Shown: one piece after another, positions 15,983 through 62,826 of the stretch | Numbering within the stretch: position 1 is the stretch's first letter | Layout: the number at the start of each line of letters is the position of its first letter | Origin: Sipunculus nudus | Taxonomy: Eukaryota > Annelida > Sipuncula > Golfingiida > Sipunculidae | DNA: 64,000 nt | Assembly: GCA_026874595.1 (NCBI GenBank) | Contig: CM049309.1 | Location: 73,704,426-73,768,425 of the forward strand | Direction of reading: 5' to 3' | Program-made: the position numbers and the translations under genes | Notes under the pieces: generated by a model | Database searches by the model: none | Seen by the model: the letters and a program-made list of their open reading frames with translations, nothing else | Told to the model about the DNA's origin: nothing

Positions 15983-16144
15983 ATAAAGAACGAAATGGTG
16001 ACGTGAAGTCCACGCCAGCCAGCTTGGTGGGAACCCCACCCCCAGAGAGGAAAAGTAAACTATCCACTTTCAGTAGAATATTTAAACCTTGGAAATGGAA
16101 GAAGAGAAAAAAGCCCAGTGAGAAAATCCAGAAACAAGCAGTGG
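15983..16144 (+). CDS. Phactr: PHACTR exon A: basic nuclear-signal region
   Basis: Residues 1-54 of the placed protein. The acceptor follows a T-rich tract ending TACTTTCAG and the donor is G|GTGAGT. The exon is 162 nt, phase 1 at both ends. It carries a [11 protein letters not shown] lead (18-28) followed by [13 protein letters not shown] (32-44). This block is the hallmark PHACTR N-terminal basic element, which in vertebrates works as a nuclear import signal regulated by actin binding to the neighbouring RPEL. The upstream part ([17 protein letters not shown]) is not conserved in my memory of the family. The frame stays open upstream to an ATG at 15877, but it then reads through the polypyrimidine tract, so I place the start at the acceptor. 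Confidence 0.93.
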
Positions 16145-28100: not shown

Positions 28101-31100
28101 AGAACATGTGATGGAACATGTGTGAATCCCACCACAATGGCAAACTTTTTGTATCCCTGTGACTTGCTAAAGCTAAGCTGTTAATCACAGTTGAATCACA
28201 TGTTCATCAAACATGCAAGTATGTTGAGATATAATGAAATCTTCTACACTTCTACAATCAAGAACAGATTGGTTTATTTGGGGTGACTTGCAACTTGTAA
28301 ATGGTTAAAAATTTGTTAAAAAAAGAGGTTTTTAATTGTCATAAAGATTTTCATGGCAGTTTTATATATGGCTCCTTAGCCTCTGTCAGGTTGTGTATAG
28401 ACAGACTGATTGTTGGATGTGTAAAACTGCTAACAACATTGCCTCCCTCTACTGCTCTAAAAACTGATCTGGAGGACATTTGTATCTTAAACAGATTCCA
28501 CAGGATTCCATATGTATGCCATTTTTCGAATACTTTGTGGATCACAGTTGTATCTTGATATAATTTGCCATATTTGTATCAGCAAAAACAAAGTTTTGTG
28601 GATACTACGTTTTTGACCGGGTTCCACCACCACGGCGGCCTTTGTTTCTGGAGAACTCCTCTGAGACTACTTGACGGAATTTTCCGAAACTTACACCAGT
28701 TATAGGGTCGCATGTGAACTGGTGCCTTACCAATTTGCATTGACCTCTGACCTTTCCTCTTTGCCCAGCGTTCATTTGTGCATCTGTTTCCATACATAAA
28801 CCCGCATATCCGGGGAACCATTTGACCGATCAGGAAAAAAATTTTGTACAAATGTAGCCCTTGCATAGCTTTATAACATACAGAAAAAATGGTAGTGCCA
28901 CCTGCAACCATGTTTGCACAGTGTCCATCTGTTCATCTGCCTTAGGTTGAAATCAATCATATCTCTGCAGTGGTTTGACTAATACCTGAAATTTGGCATG
29001 CATATACATCCTGGATAGCTTTCTTGATTTGGTGGTGCCACTTACATTCACGTTCACACTGCAGACATCCAAGCTCATATCTCGGGAACCGTTTGACCGC
29101 TTTGGCCAAAATTTTGCATGTGTATAGATCTCACATAGCTTTTTATCATACACAAAACTGGAGGGGCCACCTGCAACCATTTTTGCACAGCGTCTGTCTG
29201 TTTGTCTGCTGTGGGCTAAAATCACTCATATCTCTGTAGTGGTTTGACTTTTCTGCCTAAAATTTTGCATATGTATACAACTTGGACAGCTTTCTGGATT
29301 TGTGGTAGGTGGTGGAATCTACATACACATTTCAGCTGCAGACATCCATGCTAATATGCAACATACCTCAATCTATTTCCCCTTGCCACTCAATCCATGC
29401 CTCACTTCACCCATTCCACTCTGATTTTGGCAGATACACGTAGTAGCTTGTTGACTACCAGTATTCTAGTTTCCCCTGGATTATTCCACCTAGTTCTCTG
29501 CTGCTATGGCTCCAATCGTCATGGAACTCTTTCTACACACAGAGATTGTTTATATCATATGGACTAAAACCTGGATAATACAAGTTGCATGCCATAAGGC
29601 TATATCTTACCCTTCATTTGTGTCAGTACAGCCAGTGTGAAATTGAAATTAATACAAATGAGTTATCAATCATGTATGTCAGTGGAGGATACTGAAGGTA
29701 TCCACTGAAACTCCATACCCATCACAGAATGCAGTCATTGTAATGTACACATCATTGTGAATTTTAGGCCACCAAATGAAATAAATTGTTCTACAGTCCT
29801 GTTTTTCATGGATCATTTTCATGGATCTTTTTTTCTATACAAATGAGGATCAGGTCATTGGTATTTTGCTAATTTGTGCTGTTTCCTCAATTTCTAAAAA
29901 TTATTCTCACAGGTGTGGAAAATGGACTAAATTTTGTCTTGATTATATGCACCATATTAAGAATTCAAGGAATTTTTTGTATTTTCTGTGCAAGCTTGCA
30001 AAATTCCAAGCATTTTGTCTCAATAAATAAATTAAAAAATAAAATAAATTTAGCTCCCATGCACAATATTCCTAGTTCCCAGAATCTGCAGAACAATTAT
30101 TTTGTGTGGCCTTTTAGGGCTGTGTTAGGTTTCATGTTCATATAGATCAATTATTTTATGCCTCTGTCATAAGTCAGATGGCTGCATGATAGCAATATTA
30201 TTGACAGATAGAAACACTGGACAGGTTGAACTGGGGTCAGGAAGATGTATTCGTCAGTACAAAGGTTGGAAGCAATGTCAGTAGGGAGTTGAATGGCCTG
30301 ACACTACTGCCAGGCACAGTAGATGGACAACGCATGTTACCAGCTTGATGCTTAATGTCATGACAGGAATGGCTAGTGAATACACACAAAAGTAACAGAG
30401 ATATTTAGGATGAATATAAGAGAATATTACACTACACCCCATAACACAACATATTGCCAATGAAAAGCTGTAAAATTTAGGGATCATTTTCAGTGTGAGG
30501 CTGATCAACTTGTGAAGGTTTTACCTTTGAGCAACAAGTATTTCAGTCATATTCCCATAATCAGATTACTTTTATGTCTGTTGCTTTGTTGATGGATAGT
30601 AAGCTTACCTGAGGGCTGGTTGTAATTGTGATTTATATGGCAGTAGATAATGTTACACTCAGGTGTTTAATATTGGCTGCCATGCCTACATTCCTACATA
30701 ATATATTTTGACAAAATGATAAGCCAATTGACAATTGTCTTAGCAAGACAGCATTGTAATGTCATTTGAGTAGCATATCTTTTTGTAATTTTATGTACAT
30801 GAAAATATGTTATAGATTTATTTCATGTAAAATATGGCTAATATTTGCTAAACATTTTAACATAATTAATTTACAACATATGATGGACACCTGTTAAAGG
30901 ATTTTTGGCAATGCATTGCTTCATTAGTGTGGTCTTGTTGATATAGATGTAGATTTTGTTACACCTAGACCTGCTACAGGTTGTGGAATAAATTAGTTGT
31001 TTAAGAAATTATTTTTTTGCTGAAAATTTTTACATTACTTTGTGTATTTAGATTGTGTACATTGATCATTTCATGTAAGGGTTCCTATCTTATGGGGTAC

Positions 31101-34100
31101 AAGATAGTTCACTTTCTTTCTCCTGGGGGCCCCACTATCATTAAGGGGCAAGGTCTCCAGCTGAATCCCAAAGCATGCAGATGCCACCTACAGTGGTCGC
31201 CACTTACAGTGGTTGAAAATTACTGGTGCTGCCCAGCAACCAGGCAGTTTAAAATATTACAATATTGTGGGTCATTGGTCATGGAACTGTTGGAAAAATT
31301 ACTGAGTGGTTCAGTTTATGGCCAGATTTTGATGAAGATCCAGTCACCACAGGCAGTTTTGATTTTGTAGCAATAGTTCATTATAGTTCAGAGTAAGCGG
31401 GGACTCTCCAAGGGACAAAAGCCTTTAGTGTCCATGAAATAAAAAGAAAATTTGCAAATTTTAAAGATACTTGACTTATTGTTATAAAGCTGTTTATTAT
31501 GCAGATTGTTATTTGTGATTTGTTTAACAAGAAGCAGTGAATACAGTGATTTTCCACAATACATCACTATCCAGCAGTGGGCGAACCATTATTAATTGAG
31601 CTACATGCACAGATTAGCAATGCGTCAGTTGTATTTAAGGCTTCGATGATCACCATCCTGGTCGAGTTTTGAGAGCAGTCATCCTGGAATGTTATTATTT
31701 CCCACTGAGCCATGTGACTTCTGTGCTCTCGGTGCCCCTGAGCTCAAGCTACATGTGATGAATAATTGAAACTAAGCAGCCAGCAAACCTGAACACAATC
31801 ACACAGGCCATCGCAATTACATTTTCCAGGTGAGTTTCAGTGCTCGAAGAACATGCTGTGTACGGGTGTGTGTTTGTGCAGTGGCCAGTAAATCACAGTA
31901 CTTGGAAAGGAAGGCGTCGTTGTGTACCTGTATAGCACCTGGTTACCAAGCTCTGGTTCTTCATGGTCGATCTACCATAATACACACAGACGGTGCGGAG
32001 TGGTTGATTTGAGGATCAACATTACCTCATGAGTTTGCCAATCCTGGAGCAGATTTGGTTTTCACTTCTTTGCTTAAACAAACTATAATGGATGGCAAGG
32101 GATTGTATTAACGTGACTCTGACCAGGGCTGGATCTGATCTGTCAGTGGGCTGGTGAAGCCAGGAGGCTGCTGGTGTCCTGCTTGACAGAGCAGCACTGT
32201 TCATGTTGGTTCCATTAGCACTGGTAAACACATCACAGCCTCCATTGACTGATGGGTTGGACCTCCCTTCTTTGTGGATATTACCTTCTGTGATGATCAC
32301 ATCGGGCCAGCCACATATTAGTCTTTACTTGAAACACACCTAGTGGAAACTGCAGGAACTGAGGATCACAGGGAGGATGATAAAATGATATATGTGCATC
32401 TCAGTGGATAGATATGTGTAGGCGGTGGCACATAGCAATGTGGGTCACTCAATAAGTGTTCAGTGTATCGCCAAAGATTCTTCAGTGGTGGAACTAGCCA
32501 TTAGCTGTCTGTTTAACAACTAACCGATGTCAGTGATGAAAATGTAATGGGCTCAGCCTGCCTGTCCAAAGGTAAGGTGTATTTCTGTGTGTCTTATACA
32601 ACATGTGTCACAGGTTTCAAAGTGGCCCTTAATCTTACAAGAACGGCCTAGCAATTAGGCCTGTGGTATTGTCAATGCCTGGGGGTCATCTAGTATGTAT
32701 CTTTTGTACACTGGAGCTACCCTTGTTAATATGTAAACATACACAATATACACTGTGAAAACAGACATGGCTGCCAGTCCCAGTGCCTGTGGGGAGCGGA
32801 TCCTTGCAGATCCAGATAGTAACTGTATGCAGATATCATATTGATTTTAACCAGGGTTGAAGGCAGATATTCCCACCGTTCGGCTGCCATTGAACAGCTG
32901 GTGCTGGGACCTGCATATTTCACTCTCCCAGTTTCTGACTAAATTTAGCAGACTCACAGGCCTAAAACTGTCAATACTGCATCCTGTGTTAAAGAATCTC
33001 TGTGGGCATGTGGACCCTCTGGCAGGTCACCTGTTAGGACCTCAGCTAACCTGGTGTACACAGATCTGGGCAGTAAGGTTGCTGTGTTGGAGGTGGGCTG
33101 GTCCACCTAGGACTGGAATACCGTTTCTGGTTAGTTGCTGATACAGGCTGACCTGGCTGCCACCTGTTAAATTACAGGTGAGACTGGTCTGTTTCATGTA
33201 CTGTGCTGTGCTGTTCTTCCCATCATCAGGGCTGGTATAAAGCAATCTGGCCATGTTTACTTCTATCTACTAGAGCTTGGATACTAATGAGATACAGATT
33301 AGAATCATCATGATGATGGAATCTTATCATGTTCACATCTTTTTGTCTGGTTATCCCATGAGATTTCATACTAGATGCTATAAACAATTTGAGTTTTCAC
33401 TCAAAATGTGCTATACATGTAAGCAGTCTCAAAGATGTTGAAGATAAGGTCACTGTGATGGAGTCCAGAAGGATCACAAAAAGACTTGTAATCTGCCCTG
33501 ATATAAACAACATCCAGACTTCCTATTTGTTCAGTTGTTTTGTCTTTAAGTATGCTCTAGCAGGCTGGGTTAGATGGTTATAAAAATAAAGCAGGGACCC
33601 TCAGTGGACTGAAGCATGCAGACTTATTGATTCTTGTGAATAAATAAGCAAGTAAAAGGGGGGTCATGGGCTGGTTTGTATGAGGATTCAGGCTAAATCC
33701 ATCGACTTTTATGTCCTATCACCCAGGTCTGTGGCTGCTAAAATCAGCTTTAAAGATGAGCTGCAGATTGGGTACCTACACCACTAGATATCTGGTCAAT
33801 CTTGAAATCATCAGCCTCAAGATTAGGTTTTTTGACACCAGCCTTGATTCTGATAATGATTTATTTGAGAATTGTCTACTAAAAGCTGAACTATTAAAAA
33901 TGTATGAGCAAGCTGTACATTAATGGCTCACCGCATGTTGGTAAAACATGTACTGGTACGGTGTTGCTTGTACTGTAACAACCTGTAGCGTGTCTGCCAG
34001 TAATCCCTGTGTACTGTTTTACAGTCACAGCAATGATTATAAAGCAATTACAGAAGAAAAATAAATACCATAAGATAACTGTAGATGGTTTTAAAAAATT

Positions 34101-40100: not shown

Positions 40101-43100
40101 CTTCATCTTCAAGTTCAAATCAGATGGAATAGAAATAATTTGAGAATGATGTGGCTTTTGGAGTATTGTGTAATAGGGAGGGGAGACATATCTGTTTTTG
40201 CATTGCTAAAACAACCTCATTCTAGTTTTATCACTTATTTAAAGTCATACATTATCAACAAAGAAAAGTGAATCTTAGATGGGTAGTCACTACCACCTGT
40301 TACTACCCAGCTCAACTTGGTTTCTCCAGTGATTTAAGCAGTTGTTGGGGTTGTTATTAGAAAGTCACCACCAAACTCATTAATTCTTCACATATTTTTA
40401 GATTACCTGTTGAGCCTATTGCAGTTGCATTAACAAAGATATGCATTCTTGACTTTATGTGCGATTTACAACTCTACAATGAGAATAATTGACTGCTCCT
40501 CTAGTAGTCTTTTGGTGTTTTAATTTTTATGCAGAAATCAGGGATTTTCCCCCATTAGATGGACCCATTACAAATGGTCCTGAATCAGTTACCTTTATTG
40601 AGGCATAGGATAACCTTTCATTCTGTTTAGTTCAGTGGTAACTATAATTACTGATTGCCTCACAGGTCTAGTTTTTATATTCAACCAGCTCAGTGTACAG
40701 AATTATTAATGACAGCTTGAACATCCAGTACATCACGTTATCACAGGCCTACTTCAATTAATAGCTAATTATTTATTAGCTCTGTCTGTCTAGCTTTGTT
40801 CAGAGTCGCTAAAAAATCTAGATTTATGAATACCCAGGCTATATTTTTAGACTCTGAATGACATTTGATTTGTGATGTTTAACTTCATTCTGGTTTAGTT
40901 TGATAGATTTAGTTTGTTTTTAGAGCTGATTCTCTGACAAGGTCTGAGACAGCATACATTGTAATTAATTTAGTACCTCACCACCATTATACATTGTGTG
41001 CAACTGCTGAAATATGTCATTGATGTACAACTCGTAAAATATAGTTTTTTTCTGGGGTTCTGAGACTTCACTTTCATATGATACCAGATTTGCAGTGCAG
41101 TATATGGTGGGTCAAGTGAATATATAAGGTGTGAATGGTATAATATAATGACCTATGACATATTTAATTTTAAGCTATGATTATACCTAATGTATGCACA
41201 TTATACCTAGTGTATGTTATAAACTTAAAGTTAAGGAATTCTTTTAGAGAAGAATAACATTCAAAGGGTAATATTATCATTGAAATATATTATTCTTTGG
41301 ACAAGCTTCATGTATTTTCTCAGGTATAAATGACTCGGGTTATTGATTTGTGATGCTAATTGTTCAAAATGGCAAATGTATATTATTGTATCTGCCAAAA
41401 CAAAGTTTTGCGGATACTTTATTTTTGACCGGGTTCCGCCGCCGCCGCCATGGCCACCGCGTTCGTTTCCGGAGAACTCCTCTGAGACTACTGGACGGAT
41501 TTTTCCGTAACTTACACCAATTATCGGGTCACATGTGAACTGGTGCCTAACCAATTGGCCTTGACCTCTGACCTTTCCTCTCTGCCCAGCGTCTGTTTGT
41601 GTGTCTGTTTCCACACATAAACCCACATATCTCGGGAACTGTTTGACCAATCAGGAAAAAATTTTGTACAAATGTAGCTCTTGCATAGCTTTATAACATA
41701 CACAAGAAATGGTTGCACCACCTGCAACCATGTTTGTACAGTGTCCATCTGTTCATCTGCCTTGTGTTAAAATCATTCATATCTCTGCAGTGGTTTGACT
41801 AATTCACCTGAAATTCGGCATGCTTATACATCCTGGATAGCGTCCTTGATTTTATGACAGGTGGAGCAATCTACATTCAGGTTCATGCTGCAGACATTCA
41901 AGCTCATATCTTGGGAACTGTTTGACCAATCAGGAAAAAAAAGTTTACACAAATGTAGCCCTTGGATAGCTTTATAACATACACAAAAATTGTGGCCCCA
42001 CCTGCAGCCATTTTTGCACAGCGTCCATCTGTTTGTCTGCTGTCGGATAAAATCACTCATATCTCAACAGTGGTCTGCAGACTTTTCCACCTGACATTTT
42101 GCATGTGTATACATCTTGGATAGTTTCTTGTTCAAATAACAGGTGACGTCACCTACAATCATGTTTACATGGCAGACATCCATTCTAATATGTAACACGT
42201 AACTCTATTTCCCCTTGCCACTCAATCCATGCCTCAGTTCACCCGTCCTACTCTGATTTTGGTGGATACACATAGACGCTTGCTGACTACCCGTATTCTA
42301 GTTTGTTCTTTGTATTTTGCAGAAAAGAAAAAAGAACCTATAGAAGATAGAAACGTGCCTAACGGAGGTGCTGAAGTGGGAGATGGTCATGTGAGGATGG
42401 GTCAGAGTGCGGGCAGGCCCAGTAGCGGTGGCTCCCCCCACCCAGCTGCCCACCCAGCCAGCGGCTGTGTCCCCCCTCACGGGAGACTACCCACTAGACT
42501 CCATGATGGGGGTAAGTTACTACACCGGGATGCTTACAGTAGCCAGGGTTAGAAAATAAGCCACAGCCTGTTTGCTTGTGTGTCGTGTGACACATATTTT
42601 CTCATGGACAATTTCTTTGCATAATGATCTCATGGCAATAGCTTCAGTTTTTTTTTACATAATCCTTCTAACAAACAAACAGGGAATAAAATACTACTTC
42701 CTAACCAGGTGTAGCTTAACTCAAAGAATACATACCTTTGAAAACTTGGGAAAACATTTTCGATTTAAAAAGAAAACCTCACCTTTTGCCCCCTCAAGAC
42801 TAGCTTGTACTTTGAAATAATACATGTGTAATGTTTTGAGATTATATTTACAAAAGTATGCATGAATATTATGAAATATTAATTGCACCTGCATCAGAAG
42901 TAGGAATTCTGCCAGTCAGTAATAAACAATATCCTAGCTCAAGTTTTATCTTCCCAAAAAATGTTGTTGAATTTGATCAGGATCTTTTTGACAGACAGGA
43001 CTCATCACATACCCTCCTCAAAGCTTCCTTGTTAGATGCAACAGGAGCACATTTTCCTCAAGGCATTTAAAATAAAATCTGCCGGGTTTTAGTCTTTGGT

Positions 43101-58100: not shown

Positions 58101-61100
58101 TGTCCACAGGCAAATGACATAAAACTACATCCATGCATTGAATATCTAGAGTGAAAGGTTAGCTGCTGATGACAAGAGGTGTATAATGATTTCAATGAAG
58201 AAACACCAGCCATATTTAGATTAGGGTGTGGTTACGAGGTAAATGAACATTGACACTTCAGAAGGACTTTCATTTAAACCACTTTTACAAGACTTTCCGA
58301 GTCTGACTGCAAAAATAGGCCACCCGGCAAAGGAACTATATGACTGAAGCAGGTTAAATGTATGATCTTACCTCTATAACAATTAGGGTAGCTCTCAGGA
58401 CATGTTGGTAACCCCATGATCCATACTTAGTAGATTAGAAATAACCATTATGCCTAATTGCAAGTATAATAAACTTCATTGTAATCCTGTGATTTCTTTA
58501 TATCAGGTCATTGCAGTTGTCCTATAAATCCTATAAATAGGACTTACAAATGCGGTATAAAACTGGTAGCAGGTGAACCAATCCTTTATATAAGGCACCA
58601 TGCATTATGCACAGACATCTCAGTGTGTGTTTAGTAGCCTGGACCCTTTCAGCAATCTCTTACTTATACTTTCATTATACAGGGATTAGTATTTAGTATT
58701 TCATAATGCAAAGAAGCTTAAGTTGTCAGAAAACACACCTGCACCAGAAGTAGTTGGGTCACTTTTACTAAGTTCCATGGTCGGATGTAACCTCATAATT
58801 AATAAGGTTCATGCATTGCATTTAAAGGGCTCACGTTCAAACCCAGGTACTGCCAAGATATGAGGTGAAAGTTTAACCTGGCAGGTACAGAATCATCAGT
58901 ATACCTGAATGACTGATGTAATTTTTGGATTGTATGCAGCCCTGTGGATGAAAACCTGAGATCCAAAAGATCTTGTACTTAATTAACATCAATGGTTAAC
59001 TTGGATCTTGTTTGATAGAAATTTCAAGCATAGTCTGTAATCATAGCCTTTAAACAGTTAAAAAATTGAGAAGGAATGAGACTTCAGCTGTTTGAATATA
59101 ATCATATTATAAATCTACCTTCAAGTCAAGTACTGTGAAAAAGCAACAGCAAGAAAAGGACTGCAGCTGATTTACTTAATAACATTTCTGAGTGCTCAGC
59201 AAGTTCTGTTTGGCTATTGAAGATTAGATTTGTAGAAATTTATGCATGTTTATGCTTTCTCTTTTAGGAGGTTAAGTTTACGACCAACAGCAGAAGAATT
59301 AGAACAGAGGAATATATTACATAGTAAGTGTGATGTTTTTGAAATGCTGATTATATTTCACAAATGTAAATAAACTTATAATTTTTCTCAGACATATTTT
59401 AAACATCCATCAGTGAGTTGTTTCTCAGACATGATATGACCATCCATCAGTGAATCGAGCTGTTTCTCAGACATGGTGTAAACATCCATCAGTGAATTGA
59501 GTTGTTTCTCAGACATGATATAAACATCCATCAGTGAATCAAGTTGTTTCTCAGACATGATATAAACATCCATCAGTGAATCGAGTTGTTTCTCAGACAT
59601 GGTATACACATCCATCAGTGAATAGAGTTGTTTCTCAGACATGATATAAACATCCATCAGTGAATCGAGTTGTTTCTCAGACATGGTATAAACATCCATC
59701 AGTGAATCGAGTTGTTTCTCAGACATGATATAAACATCCATCAGTGAATTATTTCTTGCACATGGTATAAACATCCATCAGTGAATCGAGTTGTTTCTCA
59801 GACATGATATAAACATCCATCAGTGAATTATTTCTTGCACATGGTATAAACATCCATCAGTGAATTGAGTTGTTTCTCAGACATGATATAAACATCCATC
59901 AGTGAATCAAGTTGTTTCTCAGACATGATATAAACATCCATCAGTGAATCGAGTTGTTTCTCAGACATGGTATACACATCCATCAGTGAATAGAGTTGTT
60001 TCTCAGACATGATATAAACATCCATCAGTGAATCGAGTTGTTTCTCAGACATGGTATAAACATCCATCAGTGAATCGAGTTGTTTCTCAGACATGATATA
60101 AACATCCATCAGTGAATCAAGTTGTTTCTCAAACATGATATAAACATCCATCAGTGAATCGAGTTGTTTCTCAGACATGGTATAAACATCCATCAGTGAA
60201 TAGAGTTGTTTCTCAGACATGATATAAACATCCATCAGTGAATCGAGTTGTTTCTCAGACATGGTATAAACATCCATCAGTGAATCGAGTTGTTTCTCAG
60301 ACATGGTATAAACATCCATCAGTGAATCGGGTTGTTTCTCAGACATGGTATAAACATATATAAGTCAATGATGATTTCTCAGACATGATATAAAAGTGCT
60401 CATCATGTGGTGTAAATTCTGTGGCACATCCTGTACTGTGTTAATTAATCAGATTACTACCTGGACTTTAGCCAGTCATATAATTTATTCATATTGAAAA
60501 TAACCTGATAGCATCCCTTATGAGCCTCACTAGTGATTGGGCTTCAGTCTTACCTGATAATTCATCAGATATCTATCATACCTATGAAGTGATCATAAAT
60601 ACACCTGGGTGTTAATTATTCAGGGGTTCACCCAATTTTAGGCCTTCCTTGTTAATTACTCACATCACAAGTGGCATCTCTAGTATATACAAGGACATAT
60701 ACCTTAACTATTAGCCATGGTTGTTAATTAATCTTGCCTTCTTAATTACTCACAACCAGGGTTGGACTGTAAGTTTTAATGCTTGGAGTAATGCTCCAGG
60801 GAACTGTATGTCACACCCAAGTGAGCCTAATTAACAGGTATCCACTAATTAGACAAGTCTGTGCATGTGGACATACTTCAGTTTACCCATACCTGTACAT
60901 GGTTATAAAGGGCTAGCTCATGGTGCTTTAAGTACACATTTACCTGTAGATGACTGTTAGAGTTGTCCTTGCATCAGGAGCTTCTAGGGATCACTAGAGA
61001 CCATATTTTTGTACTGGCCTTAAAATGATTTGTGAAGACTTAGAGCATTTGCTGGCCATTTATGATGCCTGTATACAGTACCTGATGATGTTTCTTATGC

Positions 61101-62826
61101 AATGTTTAGGGCAAACACCAGAGGAATACAGAAGAGAGAAAGAGGAGATGAAGAAGACTTTAATAAGAAAGGTAAGTAGCATCTCAAAGGTACAGCAGCT
61201 GCACTGAAGACCACTGTAACTGCTGTTCCCTGAAACACCCAAAACTCAGGTATTTCAAATACCTCAGGCCAAACACCACTAAAAACCACTTCTAATTTGA
61301 AGCCAAAATGTGACACAGTTTATATATATTTATATATAAGACAAAAATGTTCTGTGTGTTCCTGGCACTCACAAATGGTCAGTTTCAACCCCACCAAGAG
61401 AAATATTAATTCTGGTCAACACCTGATTGGAATATAATCATCAAGAAAGAAAAAGCTTTACACCTGATACACAATAATTTCACTTTCTCCAACCAGGATT
61501 GCATTTTTGCACTGCAGACCTTTTGAAAAGACATAACCTTTATTGTGTTTTTACTTTCAGCTGAGCTTCAGACCCACAGTAGATGAACTTCAAGAAAGGA
61601 AGATCATCAAATTCAGTGATTACGTTGAGGTGACAGATATAAGTGATTATGACCGCAGGGCAGACAAGCCTTGGACAAGGCTCACACCAAAAGATAAGGT
61701 ATTTATGTCAGCAAACACACTTATACTTAAAATATTCCTTATAAACATTTGCTTTTCATTTTTTTTAAGTGCAGAGTTGAGGGTCTGTCGTTTTATGATG
61801 ATAATTTTGTACGGTAGATTTGTTGCTATATGGTTTGAGTGGCTTAGGTGTATTTTATGTAAACACATATTAAATCTCATAGTCTTTAATTAAAGTTTTC
61901 ACATGAAATCTAGCATGATGAAACAACCTCTCTATATATTTTTTTGGTTCCTACCAGTTTACTTTTTGTACTCTTTCTCACTATTTTTTAATCAAATTTG
62001 AGATTGTGACCTCAGAGTATGTCTTAGTTATTATATCCACCAAGAATTCTAAGACACTTGTAATTTAGTTGATCTGAATTGTGTAAGAGAATGCTGTTAT
62101 AAAAAAATATATATTTTTCAGGGTAGTTAGATTATTGTTTTCAAGATTTCTAGTATTTGTATTGTTCTGTTTTCTTTTTTCTAGGCATTGATACGACGAG
62201 AATTGAACGAATTTAAGAGTACAGAGATGGAAGTACATGAAGAGAGTAGACAGTTTACAAGGTAAATCTCTACATGTTTTCTTGATCTGATGTAAGGGCT
62301 TTGTTGTTGTAGACATTAGGTTTGGCATCTGGAGATTGTAAGGTTAAAAATTTGGTGTAGTTTCACACAACATTGCTTAAATGCCATTGTGTCCCAAGAC
62401 ATTTAGATATAATTGGTTCTAAAGATGGTTCCAATATTTGGAAATTGCAATTAACATTGCATAATTTGTGAAAATATAACTTTGGAAAAATTGTACTGGG
62501 CAGCCAATTTTTTTTGGTTAAACTTATATATTAGGTTGGTAAAAGGCTCAGCTGTCTTTTCTGGCGACCAGGGTTTGATCCCAAGTGTGGCTGTGACAGT
62601 GCTTTGTTGTTTCCTGTCCAATGCCAGTGGTTTTCTCCGGGTTCTCATATATCGTACACCTATAAATACTACTGAAAGCAACCACCTGAGCCATGGAGAG
62701 TGCCTTGATTAGTTATAATAAGTGTTTGCATAATTTATGTAAACTAAAAAAAGTTTTGAGTTTGTTACACTGATATCTGAACTCAGTTTGCTTCTTTTGA
62801 TTCTTTGCAGGTTTCATCGACCCTAG
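15983..62826 (+). CDS. Phactr: PHACTR, phosphatase and actin regulator (12 exons, 5' incomplete)
   Basis: Joined exons: 15983-16144, 17745-17873, 42323-42511, 50144-50317, 50745-51075, 51496-51599, 56314-56470, 59268-59323, 61110-61171, 61561-61698, 62185-62261, 62811-62826. They form one frame of 531 residues and a TAG stop. The first residue (D) is split, so at least one upstream exon is missing. Seen: basic [10 protein letters not shown] at residues 35-44, an N-terminal RPEL (55-75), RPEL1 (383-395), RPEL2 (421-433), RPEL3 (459-471), and a C-terminus with [13 protein letters not shown] and FTRFHRP. Known for the family: RPELs bind G-actin, and the last ~65 residues wrap PP1 through RVxF, hydrophobic, Arg and Trp contacts. 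Actin and PP1 compete at the C-terminus, and the protein shuttles between nucleus and cytoplasm. Vertebrates have PHACTR1-4; I infer this is the invertebrate pro-orthologue and cannot assign it to one paralogue. The middle (98-363) is poorly conserved, as in the family. Confidence 0.96.
16162..16261. repeat. Five tandem 20 bp units just inside an intron
   Basis: TCAYRTGAY-like cores start at 16165, 16185, 16205, 16225 and 16245, exactly 20 bp apart. A typical unit reads GATCATGCGACCTGGCTAAT. The array begins 17 bp after the exon A donor. Confidence 0.8.
17247..17310. repeat. 64 bp imperfect inverted repeat (hairpin)
   Basis: Left arm GTAAGCCCTGCCGTGTGGGG pairs with right arm GATCCCACACGTCAGGGCTCAC with few mismatches. 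The loop contains a nested CCTA-TCG-TAGG stem. It could be a miniature element or a structured RNA; there is no other evidence. Confidence 0.65.
17745..17873 (+). CDS. Phactr: PHACTR exon B: N-terminal RPEL motif
   Basis: Residues 55-97. Acceptor CTCTCAG and donor AAG|GTAAGT; 129 nt, symmetric phase 1. The sequence [20 protein letters not shown] matches the PHACTR N-terminal RPEL. As in vertebrate paralogues, the RPxxxEL proline is absent: R63-T-T-R-E-E-L69 has T where the signature has P. After it comes an acidic and proline-rich tail ([22 protein letters not shown]). The motif should bind one G-actin and mask the adjacent basic signal of exon A. A 24.4 kb intron follows, so isoforms that start inside that intron would lack this module. 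Confidence 0.95.
19899..23907. mobile_element. 4 kb compound element with AGCTCAGCTGAC ends and tandem modules
   Basis: Begins GCTCAGCTGAC at 19899 and ends GTCAGCTGAGC at 23897-23907, an 11 bp perfect inverted repeat identical to the ends at 188 and 2050. The left end is followed by a TCCG/TCTG microsatellite. The body is tandem copies of a roughly 336 bp module. Further internal left ends (TTTTAGCTCAGCTGACT) at about 22214 and 22734 show nested or fused copies; the right part is made of shorter, more diverged modules. It has no coding capacity. Palindromic ends with tandem modules resemble bivalve pearl-type/Helentron-associated elements (inference). Confidence 0.65.
20331..21980. repeat. 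336 bp tandem repeat array
   Basis: The anchor TCTGTTARCA recurs at 20331, 20668, 21004, 21352 and 21687 (spacings 337, 336, 348, 335). The 348 bp unit carries an inserted poly-C run near 21147. Each unit contains CTCTGTTACCCATA, GTGGCGCCACCTGT and a TGGTCATGATTTTTGGCATA block. GGCGCC gives each module a short GC-rich palindrome. Confidence 0.88.
28576..29472. repeat. 0.9 kb dispersed repeat, copy 1
   Basis: Starts GTATCAGCAAAAACAAAGTT and ends GTATTCTAGTTT. Collinear with 41388-42304. Inside are diverged submodules, each with CATATCTC, a GTTTGACC-like word, then TTTTGCATG or TTTGGCATG, and CAACCATxTTTGCACAG. Confidence 0.8.
32527..32547 (+). promoter_or_regulatory. uORF overlapping the candidate alternative start (TAATG)
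   Basis: A six-codon uORF (MSVMKM, with three ATGs) ends in a TAA whose last base is the A of the ATG at 32547. This TAATG overlap is a termination-reinitiation arrangement. If the alternative first exon is real, scanning ribosomes would meet this uORF first and translation of the short isoform would be damped or made conditional. Confidence 0.3.
32547..32571 (+). CDS. Phactr: Candidate alternative first coding exon (MGSACLSK) of PHACTR
   Basis: An ATG with G at -3 and G at +4 opens MGSACLSK, then one base, then a consensus donor (AAAG|GTAAGG). The phase (one base left over) is what exon C at 42323 needs; the joined frame would read [14 protein letters not shown]. An in-frame TAA at 32514 closes the frame upstream, so this is a start and not an internal exon. 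G2 allows N-myristoylation and C5 palmitoylation. From memory, some vertebrate PHACTR2/PHACTR4 isoforms begin with a similar MGQ-x-x-V-S peptide, but that exon lies upstream of the basic block there. The product here would skip exons A and B. It could be chance: the exon is very short and I cannot see transcript evidence. Confidence 0.45.
34172..34561. mobile_element. 390 bp inverted-repeat (MITE-like) element
   Basis: The left end GCATTCCATATATG and the right end CATATATGGAATGC are inverse copies. Further inverted matches follow inward (ATGCAGTAC, GGGTTATGTATGCA), so the whole segment can fold back. No target-site duplication is seen and it has no coding capacity. Confidence 0.5.
34547..34556. 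promoter_or_regulatory. CArG-box match (CCATATATGG) in the large intron
   Basis: Identical to the site at 6597. It sits in the right arm of an inverted-repeat element (34172-34561), 2 kb downstream of the candidate alternative first exon. The left arm has a one-base-off version ending in GC. Confidence 0.22.
39603..40190. mobile_element. 588 bp element with 13 bp perfect terminal inverted repeats
   Basis: TATGTCTCCCCTC at 39603-39615 is exactly inverted as GAGGGGAGACATA at 40178-40190. Between them are three diverged modules with TATAACTTTTxAA, GTTTGAAAACxxxTGACCTTGACC-like and GGTCAAA words. It is non-coding. Confidence 0.6.
41388..42304. repeat. 0.9 kb dispersed repeat, copy 2, abutting exon C
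   Basis: Collinear with 28576-29472 from GTATCTGCCAAAACAAAGTT to GTATTCTAGTTT. It ends 18 bp before exon C, leaving only GTTCTTTGTATTTTGCAG as unique acceptor sequence. The branch point for exon C therefore probably lies inside the repeat. Confidence 0.8.
42323..42511 (+). CDS. Phactr: PHACTR exon C: low-complexity linker
   Basis: Residues 98-160. Acceptor TTTTGCAG and donor G|GTAAGT; 189 nt, symmetric phase 1. It begins [16 protein letters not shown] and continues into a Gly/Ser/Pro/His-rich stretch with several PxxP-like spacings. I recognise no domain; the linker between the N-terminal RPEL and the C-terminal half is variable throughout the family. Support is the open frame, consensus splice sites, GC content well above the flanking intron, and phase agreement with exons B and D. 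A 0.9 kb repeat ends only 18 bp before this exon. Confidence 0.87.
42512..50143 (+). other. Phactr: 7.6 kb PHACTR intron between exons C and D
   Basis: GTAAGT...TTTCAG. AT-rich, with no recognisable gene. It contains the 160 bp tandem duplication at 45290-45612 and a 22-24 bp duplication around 48088-48133 (CATAGTCAGTGAAT). The weak repeats near 47150-47250 (words like GGCTCTGATAA, ATCATGAAT) carry little information. Confidence 0.88.
45290..45612. repeat. Diverged tandem duplication, about 160 bp
   Basis: Both halves begin TTTCTCTTTAAAAAT and share ATTAATTTCT, GTGAAAAGCAG/ATGAAAAGCAG, ACTAAGTATATCACAG, TTCAGxTGATG and ATTTCTTTG in the same order. Confidence 0.75.
50144..50317 (+). CDS. Phactr: PHACTR exon D: linker
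   Basis: Residues 161-218. Acceptor TTATTTCAG and donor TCAG|GTAAGT; 174 nt, symmetric phase 1. The product starts [17 protein letters not shown] and contains a hydrophobic/basic stretch, [16 protein letters not shown], then [18 protein letters not shown] recognise no domain. The alternating hydrophobic pattern suggests short beta-like binding segments, which is inference. Because exons A to D are all symmetric phase 1, any of them can be skipped without a frameshift. Confidence 0.88.
50318..50744 (+). other. Phactr: PHACTR intron between exons D and E
   Basis: 427 bp, GTAAGT...TTGCAG. The middle (50500-50660) carries one diverged module with TCTGTCTGTT, GATATCTCAAAAAG and TTCAAGGTCAC words, resembling the modules of the larger intronic elements. 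Confidence 0.9.
50745..51075 (+). CDS. Phactr: PHACTR exon E: proline-rich region
   Basis: Residues 219-328, the largest placed exon (331 nt); it enters in phase 1 and leaves in phase 2. Acceptor CCTTGCAG, donor GGCAG|GTAGGC. Proline-rich runs sit at 222-258 ([18 protein letters not shown]) and 312-323 ([12 protein letters not shown]), suitable for SH3, WW or EVH1 partners. Between them lies a basic patch, [11 protein letters not shown] (274-284), a candidate basophilic-kinase or 14-3-3 site, and a Gln/Leu-rich segment likely to be helical (287-306). Vertebrate PHACTRs have a similar long proline-rich middle, but residues are not alignable by eye. Splicing past the donor reaches a TAG at once, which fixes the exon end. 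Confidence 0.9.
51076..51495 (+). other. Phactr: PHACTR intron between exons E and F
   Basis: 420 bp, GTAGGC...TTGCAG. AT-rich; I see nothing in it beyond the splice sites. Confidence 0.9.
51496..51599 (+). CDS. Phactr: PHACTR exon F: acidic region
   Basis: Residues 329-363 (104 nt, phase 2 in, phase 1 out). Acceptor ACTTGCAG, donor GAGA|GTAAGT. The product runs [14 protein letters not shown] and then the acidic stretch [20 protein letters not shown]. Vertebrate PHACTRs have an equivalent Ser/Asp-rich stretch with an I-x-Y core just before RPEL1, so its position fits. SDSSDDE is a typical CK2-type acidic serine cluster. Its 3' part and donor are duplicated downstream (see the repeat at 51537-51911). 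Confidence 0.92.
51537..51911 (+). repeat. Phactr: Four tandem copies of the exon F end and its splice donor
   Basis: The 94 bp unit covers the last ~63 bases of exon F, the donor and ~30 bases of intron. Donor GTs fall at 51600, 51694, 51785 and 51879 (spacing 94, 91, 94), all in GAGA|GTAAGT context. The would-be exon copies 51634-51693 (60 nt), 51728-51784 (57 nt) and 51819-51878 (60 nt) are all open in the frame of exon F. Copies 2 and 4 are preceded by AG; copy 3 has GG instead. Pyrimidine tracts are weak. Confidence 0.9.
52265..52345. repeat. Dispersed repeat, copy 2 (GTGGTC-rich)
   Basis: AATTGGGACCATGAAAAAGT, TTTTGAGGTGATCACTA and AAGGTGGTC follow in the same order as at 4690-4755. 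Confidence 0.5.
52947..54469. mobile_element. 1.5 kb palindrome-ended element with eight 180 bp modules
   Basis: The left end is a hairpin, ATGCCCCCGCCAC-AAA-GTGGCCGGGGCAT. The right end is GGCGGGGGCAT (54436-54446), the inverse of the left end, then a perfect GTGTCG-TTC-CGACAC hairpin (54449-54463) and ATCTAG. The modules are anchored by TRYGGACTTTTTTTC at 53025, 53207, 53378, 53557, 53737, 53899, 54079 and 54259. Each has TGCCTGCAGATA, CTGATTTTTGGTGTGT, CAGTTACAGATCGAGTTCGC and a TTGACCTACTTTTGACC block. A terminal hairpin next to CTAG recalls Helitron/Helentron-derived elements; the class is an inference. There is no transposase. Confidence 0.75.
56314..56470 (+). CDS. Phactr: PHACTR exon G: RPEL1
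   Basis: Residues 364-415 (157 nt). Acceptor TGTTACAG, donor [30 protein letters not shown] leads into RPEL1: R383-P-C-R-R-D-L389, then MERNILP. The signature ends in DL where most RPELs have EL, a conservative change. The charged helix after it ([17 protein letters not shown]) is the RPEL spacer helix. In the family, the three C-terminal RPELs bind G-actin cooperatively in a multi-actin assembly. The intron falls inside the Arg codon that begins the next RPEL repeat. Confidence 0.96.
56471..59267 (+). other. Phactr: 2.8 kb PHACTR intron between exons G and H
   Basis: GTATGT...TTTTAG. It contains a C15 run at 56612-56626 and a G18 run at 56719-56736. It also has a loose duplication (57390-57600) in which TCTCAAATxTxxAGGGATGATTGGTG-type sequence occurs twice. 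No gene is seen. Confidence 0.88.
57385..57605. repeat. Two diverged modules, about 150 bp apart
   Basis: CAGCGAGAATACATTTGATC with TAGGGATGATTGGTG is followed by CAATGAGAATATGCTTGATC with CAGGGATGATTGGTG. The same type of module occurs in other intronic elements. Confidence 0.6.
59268..59323 (+). CDS. Phactr: PHACTR exon H: RPEL2 core
   Basis: Residues 416-434 (56 nt, phase 2 in, phase 1 out). Acceptor CTTTTAG, donor [28 protein letters not shown] contains the canonical R421-P-T-A-E-E-L427. EEL-x-QRNIL is nearly invariant across PHACTRs as I remember them. The exon is small, and a 42 bp minisatellite begins about 80 bp after its donor. An AATAAA lies 46-51 nt past the donor; if used it would truncate the protein before RPEL3 and the PP1 site, but there is no evidence that it is. 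Confidence 0.95.
59324..61109 (+). other. Phactr: 1.8 kb PHACTR intron between exons H and I
   Basis: GTAAGT...GTTTAG. More than half is the 42 bp minisatellite. The rest (60370-61100) is unique sequence with a loose repeat of TTGTTAATTACTCACA-like words about 100 bp apart. Confidence 0.9.
59404..60357. repeat. 42 bp minisatellite, about 23 units, with higher-order structure
   Basis: The consensus unit contains TCAGTGAATCGAGTTGTTTC and TCAGACATGATATAAACATC. Two units are 37 bp long and carry a TTATTTCTTGCACATGG variant. Units 3-8 and units 12-17 show the same order of variants, so a block of six units (about 252 bp) was duplicated. Because 42 is a multiple of three, the minus strand is open as a 14-residue repeat ([15 protein letters not shown]); see the rejected list. 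Confidence 0.95.
61110..61171 (+). CDS. Phactr: PHACTR exon I: charged spacer between RPEL2 and RPEL3
   Basis: Residues 435-455 (62 nt). Acceptor ATGTTTAG, donor AAAG|GTAAGT, leaving in phase 0. It encodes [20 protein letters not shown], the helical charged spacer that in vertebrates reads as a K/E/A-rich helix ending in RRLTRK. In RPEL proteins these spacer helices set the actin-to-actin spacing. The phase matches both neighbours. Confidence 0.92.
61172..61560 (+). other. Phactr: PHACTR intron between exons I and J
   Basis: 389 bp, GTAAGT...CTTTCAG. I see nothing in it beyond the splice signals and a TATATATATTTATATATA stretch. Confidence 0.92.
61561..61698 (+). CDS. Phactr: PHACTR exon J: RPEL3 and first part of the PP1-binding region
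   Basis: Residues 456-501 (138 nt, phase 0 at both ends). The acceptor is preceded by TTTTTACTTTCAG; the donor is AAG|GTATTT. LSF then R459-P-T-V-D-E-L465 is RPEL3. It runs into [13 protein letters not shown], where I470-I-K-F473 is the RVxF-type PP1 docking motif overlapping the actin site. Y476-V477 are the hydrophobic pair, and DRRADKPW (486-493) supplies the Arg and Trp contacts. This near-identity to vertebrate PHACTRs gives the surest family call in the window. The overlap explains the mutual exclusion of actin and PP1 known in the family. Confidence 0.97.
61699..62184 (+). other. Phactr: PHACTR intron between exons J and K
   Basis: 486 bp, GTATTT...TTCTAG. AT-rich with a long pyrimidine tract at the 3' end; nothing else is seen. 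Confidence 0.92.
62185..62261 (+). CDS. Phactr: PHACTR exon K: PP1-binding amphipathic helix
   Basis: Residues 502-526 (77 nt; phase 0 in, phase 2 out). Acceptor TTTTTTCTAG, donor [27 protein letters not shown] and EESRQFTR match the C-terminal helix that, in PHACTR-PP1 complexes, packs against PP1 and reshapes its hydrophobic substrate groove. The conservation is strong enough to exclude a pseudogene reading of this end. Confidence 0.96.
62262..62810 (+). other. Phactr: PHACTR intron between exons K and L
   Basis: 549 bp, GTAAAT...TTGCAG. Its middle holds a SINE-like segment (62525-62690). Confidence 0.92.
62525..62690 (+). mobile_element. tRNA-derived SINE-like fragment
   Basis: GGTTTGATCCC (near 62573) matches the RNA polymerase III B box of tRNA-derived SINEs, and GGTAAAAGGCTCAGCTG lies where a degenerate A box would be. 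Downstream, CCAGTGGTTTTCTCCGGGTT resembles the body seen in several invertebrate SINEs. No intact tRNA cloverleaf is present. Confidence 0.45.
62811..62826 (+). CDS. Phactr: PHACTR exon L: terminal exon, FHRP and stop
   Basis: Acceptor TTCTTTGCAG. The first base completes the split Arg codon (R527), followed by F-H-R-P and TAG. The RFHRP C-terminus is the invariant end of PHACTR proteins, so the stop is correct although only 16 coding bases lie here. The 3' UTR follows directly. Confidence 0.96.

Follow-up and report, generated by a model that had tools for sequence, protein, structure and literature searches.

A first-exon-like site within a 24-kb intron of a PHACTR-like gene of Sipunculus nudus: cryptic start or alternative first exon

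Vertebrate PHACTR2 and PHACTR4 have isoforms that start with MGQ, specified by an alternative first exon, and a Met-Gly start is shared by the candidate exon considered in this study; the vertebrate MGQ exons precede and join the equivalent of exon A, whereas the candidate would replace both exons A and B of its gene. Attachment of a PHACTR to the plasma membrane through its N-terminus, as proposed for the present locus, is already described for PHACTR3 (scapinin), whose N-terminal segment binds the membrane, but it does so through basic and hydrophobic residues and not a fatty acid, and the counterpart of that segment lies in exon A, which the proposed isoform would lose (PMC4236165). Human PHACTR1 is reported to have internal promoters, and the protein of its short transcript would be without the N-terminal NLS. 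As with the candidate, the start of this transcript is intragenic and the N-terminal NLS and some RPELs are lost; unlike the candidate, an extended exon 10 comes first, two RPELs are kept, and acylation goes unmentioned in those parts of the report drawn upon here (PMC4917897). The protein of the short transcript was not detected in either of two studies (PMC4917897, PMC5994109). The best precedent for an acylated start from an alternative promoter is the sperm hexokinase HK1S (MGQICQ), in which, as proposed for the candidate, an alternative promoter gives a new N-terminus and a plasma membrane location; its Gly2 carries myristate and its Cys5 is a putative palmitoylation site. In HK1S, Gln3 is said to take the part of Ser6 (PMC4736023), whereas the candidate has Ser3 and Leu6.

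The window, that is, the whole stretch of 64,000 nucleotides that was analysed (C4:73704426-73768425 of the 1.43-Gb genome), carries along its + strand what looks like a PHACTR gene, with the following parts.

15983-16144, + strand: exon A, with a basic/hydrophobic segment that is the counterpart of the PHACTR3 membrane-binding segment
17745-17873, + strand: exon B, with the N-terminal RPEL; ends GAA G
42323-42511, + strand: exon C, entered in phase 1; starts AA AAG AAA
56314-56471 (approximate borders), + strand: basic stretch and C-terminal RPEL-type motif (Pfam below cut-off, and pattern), kept in the proposed isoform
59269-59322 (approximate borders), + strand: RPEL-like motif (pattern), kept in the proposed isoform
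61558-61698 (approximate borders), + strand: last RPEL-type motif and PP1-binding-like tail (Pfam below cut-off, and pattern), kept in the proposed isoform

Each of exons A, B and C has phase 1 at both of its borders, and 24,449 bp of intron separate B from C. The gene does look like the PHACTR named in the first-pass annotation: the RPEL of exon B lies above the Pfam cut-off (3.2e-08, 33.4 bits, cut-off 23), two weaker matches near 61.6 kb (9.8e-05, 22.4 bits) and 56.4 kb (0.021, 14.9 bits) lie below it, and the motif near 59.3 kb and the C-terminal tail, which we take to be PP1-binding, were recognised from pattern alone. A genome search with exons A-C returned three matches, all of them exons of this gene (9 of 9 candidates scored), and in that search no second PHACTR gene appeared. 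Further upstream, the exon MASPTQTDDISTEAAAPDLHRQRSNSDPQPTVGLMSNNK (C4:73665195-73665312; start at -39230, about 39.2 kb before the window; donor score 8.5) reads in one frame through exons A, B and C; it is probably the first coding exon and normal start of the gene, and it includes an RSNSDP stretch that resembles vertebrate PHACTR N-termini.

Some other features of the region may be recorded here. On the - strand at 59388-60364, adjacent open frames of 129 and 178 aa share a repeated 14-residue segment and are likely to form a tandem array. Beyond the window, at C4:73787568-73787652 (window coordinates 83143-83227), the sequence MGCNTSKSAATEGQNGNKPEEKPAEQQA, followed by a donor that scores 10.8, forms a start exon that fits the MGxxxS/T rule, probably belongs to another gene downstream of PHACTR, and resembles the MGCGNS start of human OCC1. 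CpG observed/expected ranges widely across the 264 kb that surround the window: parts of the gene are close to 0, and values above 1 are found mostly outside it but also near 53.0 kb, inside the PHACTR gene; so wide a range resembles that of animals with mosaic methylation.

The candidate lies within the long intron, in a block somewhat richer in G+C than its surroundings, and its parts are as follows.

31500-33499, + strand: G+C-richer block (0.44-0.46 G+C per 500 bp), which contains the intron's three top-scoring donors (31829, 32571 and 33177)
32514-32516, + strand: in-frame TAA, 33 nt before the candidate ATG
32527-32547, + strand: upstream frame of six codons (MSVMKM*) containing three ATGs (32527, 32536 and 32542); its stop TAA shares one base with the candidate ATG (TAATG)
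32547-32571, + strand: candidate alternative first coding exon, coding part from ATG to donor (MGSACLSK plus one base)
32572-32577, + strand: donor GTAAGG (AAG/GTAAGG after 32571), second-best donor score in the intron

The candidate frame reads ATG GGC TCA GCC TGC CTG TCC AAA G, that is, eight codons open from the ATG (32547-32549) to the donor and one spare base, which is the phase accepted by exon C. The start context is good, with G at both -3 and +4, and every anatomical element described previously (ATG, frame, phase, GTAAGG donor and upstream in-frame stop) was confirmed in the sequence. Since exons A, B and C are all of phase 1, the phase match alone amounts to about a one-in-three event. 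Ahead of the candidate, 20 ATGs occur in 31660-32546, and together with the overlapping MSVMKM* frame they mean that translation from the candidate ATG would need a transcript start only a few bases away, leaky scanning or reinitiation.

Donors were scored by position weights, with frequencies typical of vertebrate donors and untrained on the host organism. On this scale the donor of exon A scores 8.4, that of exon B 12.6 and that of exon C 9.5, and the candidate donor scores 11.5, second among the 1513 GT sites of the intron and a level reached by none of its 1300 antisense GT sites. The three top donors all fall inside 1.35 kb, and in simulations under two Markov orders only 4 and 6 introns out of 1632 had three donors of at least 10.8 within 1349 bp. 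Other clusters are present in the 264 kb of real sequence: near -26.7 kb three antisense donors fall in about 300 bp, and the stretch from -64.7 to -60.9 kb holds four on the sense strand. Such sites may or may not belong to exons.

How often such a start would arise by chance was estimated in several ways. Under a plain GT[AG]AG rule, the intron holds 5 sense and 12 antisense first-ATG starts that end in phase 1; with donor scores of at least 8 there remain one sense start, the candidate, and eight antisense starts, one of which has Gly2. In the simulations (40 Mb of intron-like sequence for each of the two Markov orders, which shared seeds and are not independent), phase-1 starts with donors of at least 11.5 occurred 0.12-0.13 times per intron, those that also had Gly2 0.002-0.005 times, and those with Gly2 and a Cys at 3-6 0.0006-0.0012 times, the last figure coming from only 2 and 1 cases. 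A model trained on 31500-33500, a stretch picked post hoc, gave 0.015-0.017 phase-1 starts with donors of at least 11.5 per 2001 bp. The 264 kb of real sequence contain four sense and two antisense phase-1 starts at 11.4 or above, neither antisense one with Gly2, and the antisense rate corresponds to about 0.19 per intron length, so that the simulations may understate chance; some of the sense starts counted in the 264 kb end at likely true exons. At 10 or above, there are seven sense starts, two with Gly2 and both of these MG..C (one is the candidate; the other, MGCNTSKS, belongs to a different gene), and nine antisense starts, two with Gly2 and one MG..C. Upstream of exon A, just one of the 23 starts with donors of at least 8 begins with MG, MGCYLKDTINRT at -142174, far beyond the likely extent of the gene, and there is none between the exon at -39.2 kb and exon A.

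In an intron such as this one, a start that has the right phase and an excellent donor is to be expected in roughly one case in eight to one in five, and the donor cluster is the stronger hint. The MG..C pattern is rarer by chance, but because it prompted the selection of this site, and because real first exons rarely start so either, it is no proof of an exon; by argument rather than measurement, it raises the interest of the site and not the likelihood that it is an exon.

The G+C content of the block (31500-33499) exceeds that of all remaining 500-bp steps wholly within the intron, which range from 0.32 to 0.43. A CpG-island promoter at the block is unsupported, as its CpG peak ranks only seventh among the separate peaks of the intron. 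A transposon origin of 32400-32700 was likewise set aside, the genome having no detectable second copy of this segment (one candidate, one scored), and blastn at 1e-3 found no similarity between 31000-33600 and the rest of the window. Searched against the genome, 31000-33600 gave 39 matches besides itself among the best 40 of 187 candidates, all at query positions 28-196, and since those best 40 were the ones scored, further repeats may lie elsewhere in the segment. The stretch at about 31027-31195 is a fragment of a multi-copy genomic repeat, with at least 39 further matches. The best donor of the intron (CAG/GTGAGT at 31827-31835, donor 31829) has no ATG-bearing frame open to it in any phase and may end a non-coding first exon. 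Between it and the candidate ATG, the best acceptor scores 7.2, compared with 9.1-12.7 for exons A-C, and hence no spliced 5' leader stands out; this argument is weak, since a putative exon near 45.8 kb has an acceptor of just 7.1.

On balance, it seems probable that the candidate is a cryptic first-exon-like site of a long intron, unused for PHACTR protein, where by chance a strong donor would follow an ATG with eight codons open behind it in the G+C-richer block. Normal PHACTR translation probably begins at an exon some 39 kb before the window and continues through exons A, B and C. The grading of this reading and those of the others are judgements and not computed values. Comparable starts are expected by chance at 0.12-0.13 per simulated intron and at about 0.19 per intron length of real antisense sequence, the candidate ATG is overlapped by a frame with three ATGs and preceded by 20, the CpG peak of the block is unremarkable, and a complete N-terminus that joins A, B and C in frame is available without it; the modest leader acceptor adds a little. 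Against a cryptic site stand the rank of the donor (2 of 1513), the rarity of three best donors in 1.35 kb, the low expectation of the block-trained model (for a block defined post hoc), the lack of a detectable transposon copy of 32400-32700, and the use of internal promoters by human PHACTR1 (PMC4917897). The same donor strength and donor cluster, with the correct phase, the good start context, the upstream stop and the raised G+C content, speak for a real alternative first exon driven from a promoter inside the gene, within the block at 31.5-33.2 kb, a reading that has precedents in the internal promoters reported for human PHACTR1 (PMC4917897) and in the acylated MGxxC start that an alternative promoter gives to HK1S (PMC4736023). 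The isoform would be without the segment of exon A and the first RPEL, and would keep three RPEL-type motifs and the PP1-binding-like tail. The upstream frame and ATGs count against it, as does the poor fit of Ser3 and Leu6 to the four myristoylation rules considered below, and we regard a real exon as rather unlikely, though a serious contender.

The block could also contain non-coding first exons, belonging either to an internal promoter or to a gene for a non-coding RNA, for instance one ending at 31829, the best donor of the intron and one to which no ATG frame is open, with PHACTR translation starting at the ATG at 42397 in exon C. This in-frame ATG (42397-42432) has a strong context and is a possible start for any transcript that lacks exons A and B. 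It begins MGQSAGRP, the base at -3 being A and that at +4 G, and its Gln3 agrees with the rule given for proteins without Ser6 or Thr6 (PMC4736023). It is preceded in exon C, however, by the out-of-frame ATG GTC ATG TGA, and the CpG peak of the block is not outstanding, so that this account is judged improbable. Least probable of all, and very unlikely in our judgement, is a poison cassette exon, spliced in after B and before C, through which the mRNA would acquire a stop: exon B read through an acceptor at 32534 does give VMKM*, but the 15 top-scoring acceptors of 31500-33399 do not include it.

It had been suggested that the isoform would gain Gly2 and Cys5, typical of myristoylation plus palmitoylation. 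Both residues are present in MGSACLSK, the Gly directly after the initiator Met and the Cys close to it, but with Leu6 and Ser3 the peptide fails four of the four myristoylation rules checked, one of them a PROSITE-like rule: residue 6 is not S or T (or A, C, N or G), and residue 3 is neither Asn nor Gln. HK1S, under the same test, fits the Gln3 rule. An optimal myristoylation motif is given as MGxxxS/T/A/C/N (PMC9584500), and proteins without Ser6 or Thr6 are said to depend on Gln3 or Asn3 (PMC4736023). These rules are not absolute, MG being described as the sole absolute requirement (PMC4736023). Even if the exon is real, lipid anchoring is a separate question, and full dual acylation appears to be a distant prospect; equally hard to credit is the complete scheme, in which an internal promoter at 31.5-32.5 kb would yield a dual fatty-acid anchor (Gly2 and Cys5, then EKKK) in place of the membrane segment and first RPEL.

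The function claimed for the isoform, a PP1 regulator released from nuclear shuttling and actin control and newly tethered to the membrane, is at best weakly suggested by the sequence. A PHACTR3-like membrane segment already exists in exon A and would be dropped, so the isoform would swap one membrane link for another and gain none. The loss of the exon A segment and of the first RPEL, in exon B, would indeed follow, but the basic stretch near 56.3 kb and the three C-terminal RPEL-type motifs would be kept, and a full loss of the nuclear signal or of actin control does not follow.

If the site is cryptic, as we favour, it illustrates how persuasive a first exon may arise in a long intron through chance alone, and why the motif that draws attention to a site cannot double as proof of it. 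If the exon is real, the choice of promoter would let a PP1 regulator exchange its actin-sensitive N-terminus for a fatty-acid anchor, in a manner akin to sperm hexokinase, and if it were also dually acylated, PP1 would be tethered to the membrane through an anchor not open to masking by G-actin at the N-terminus.
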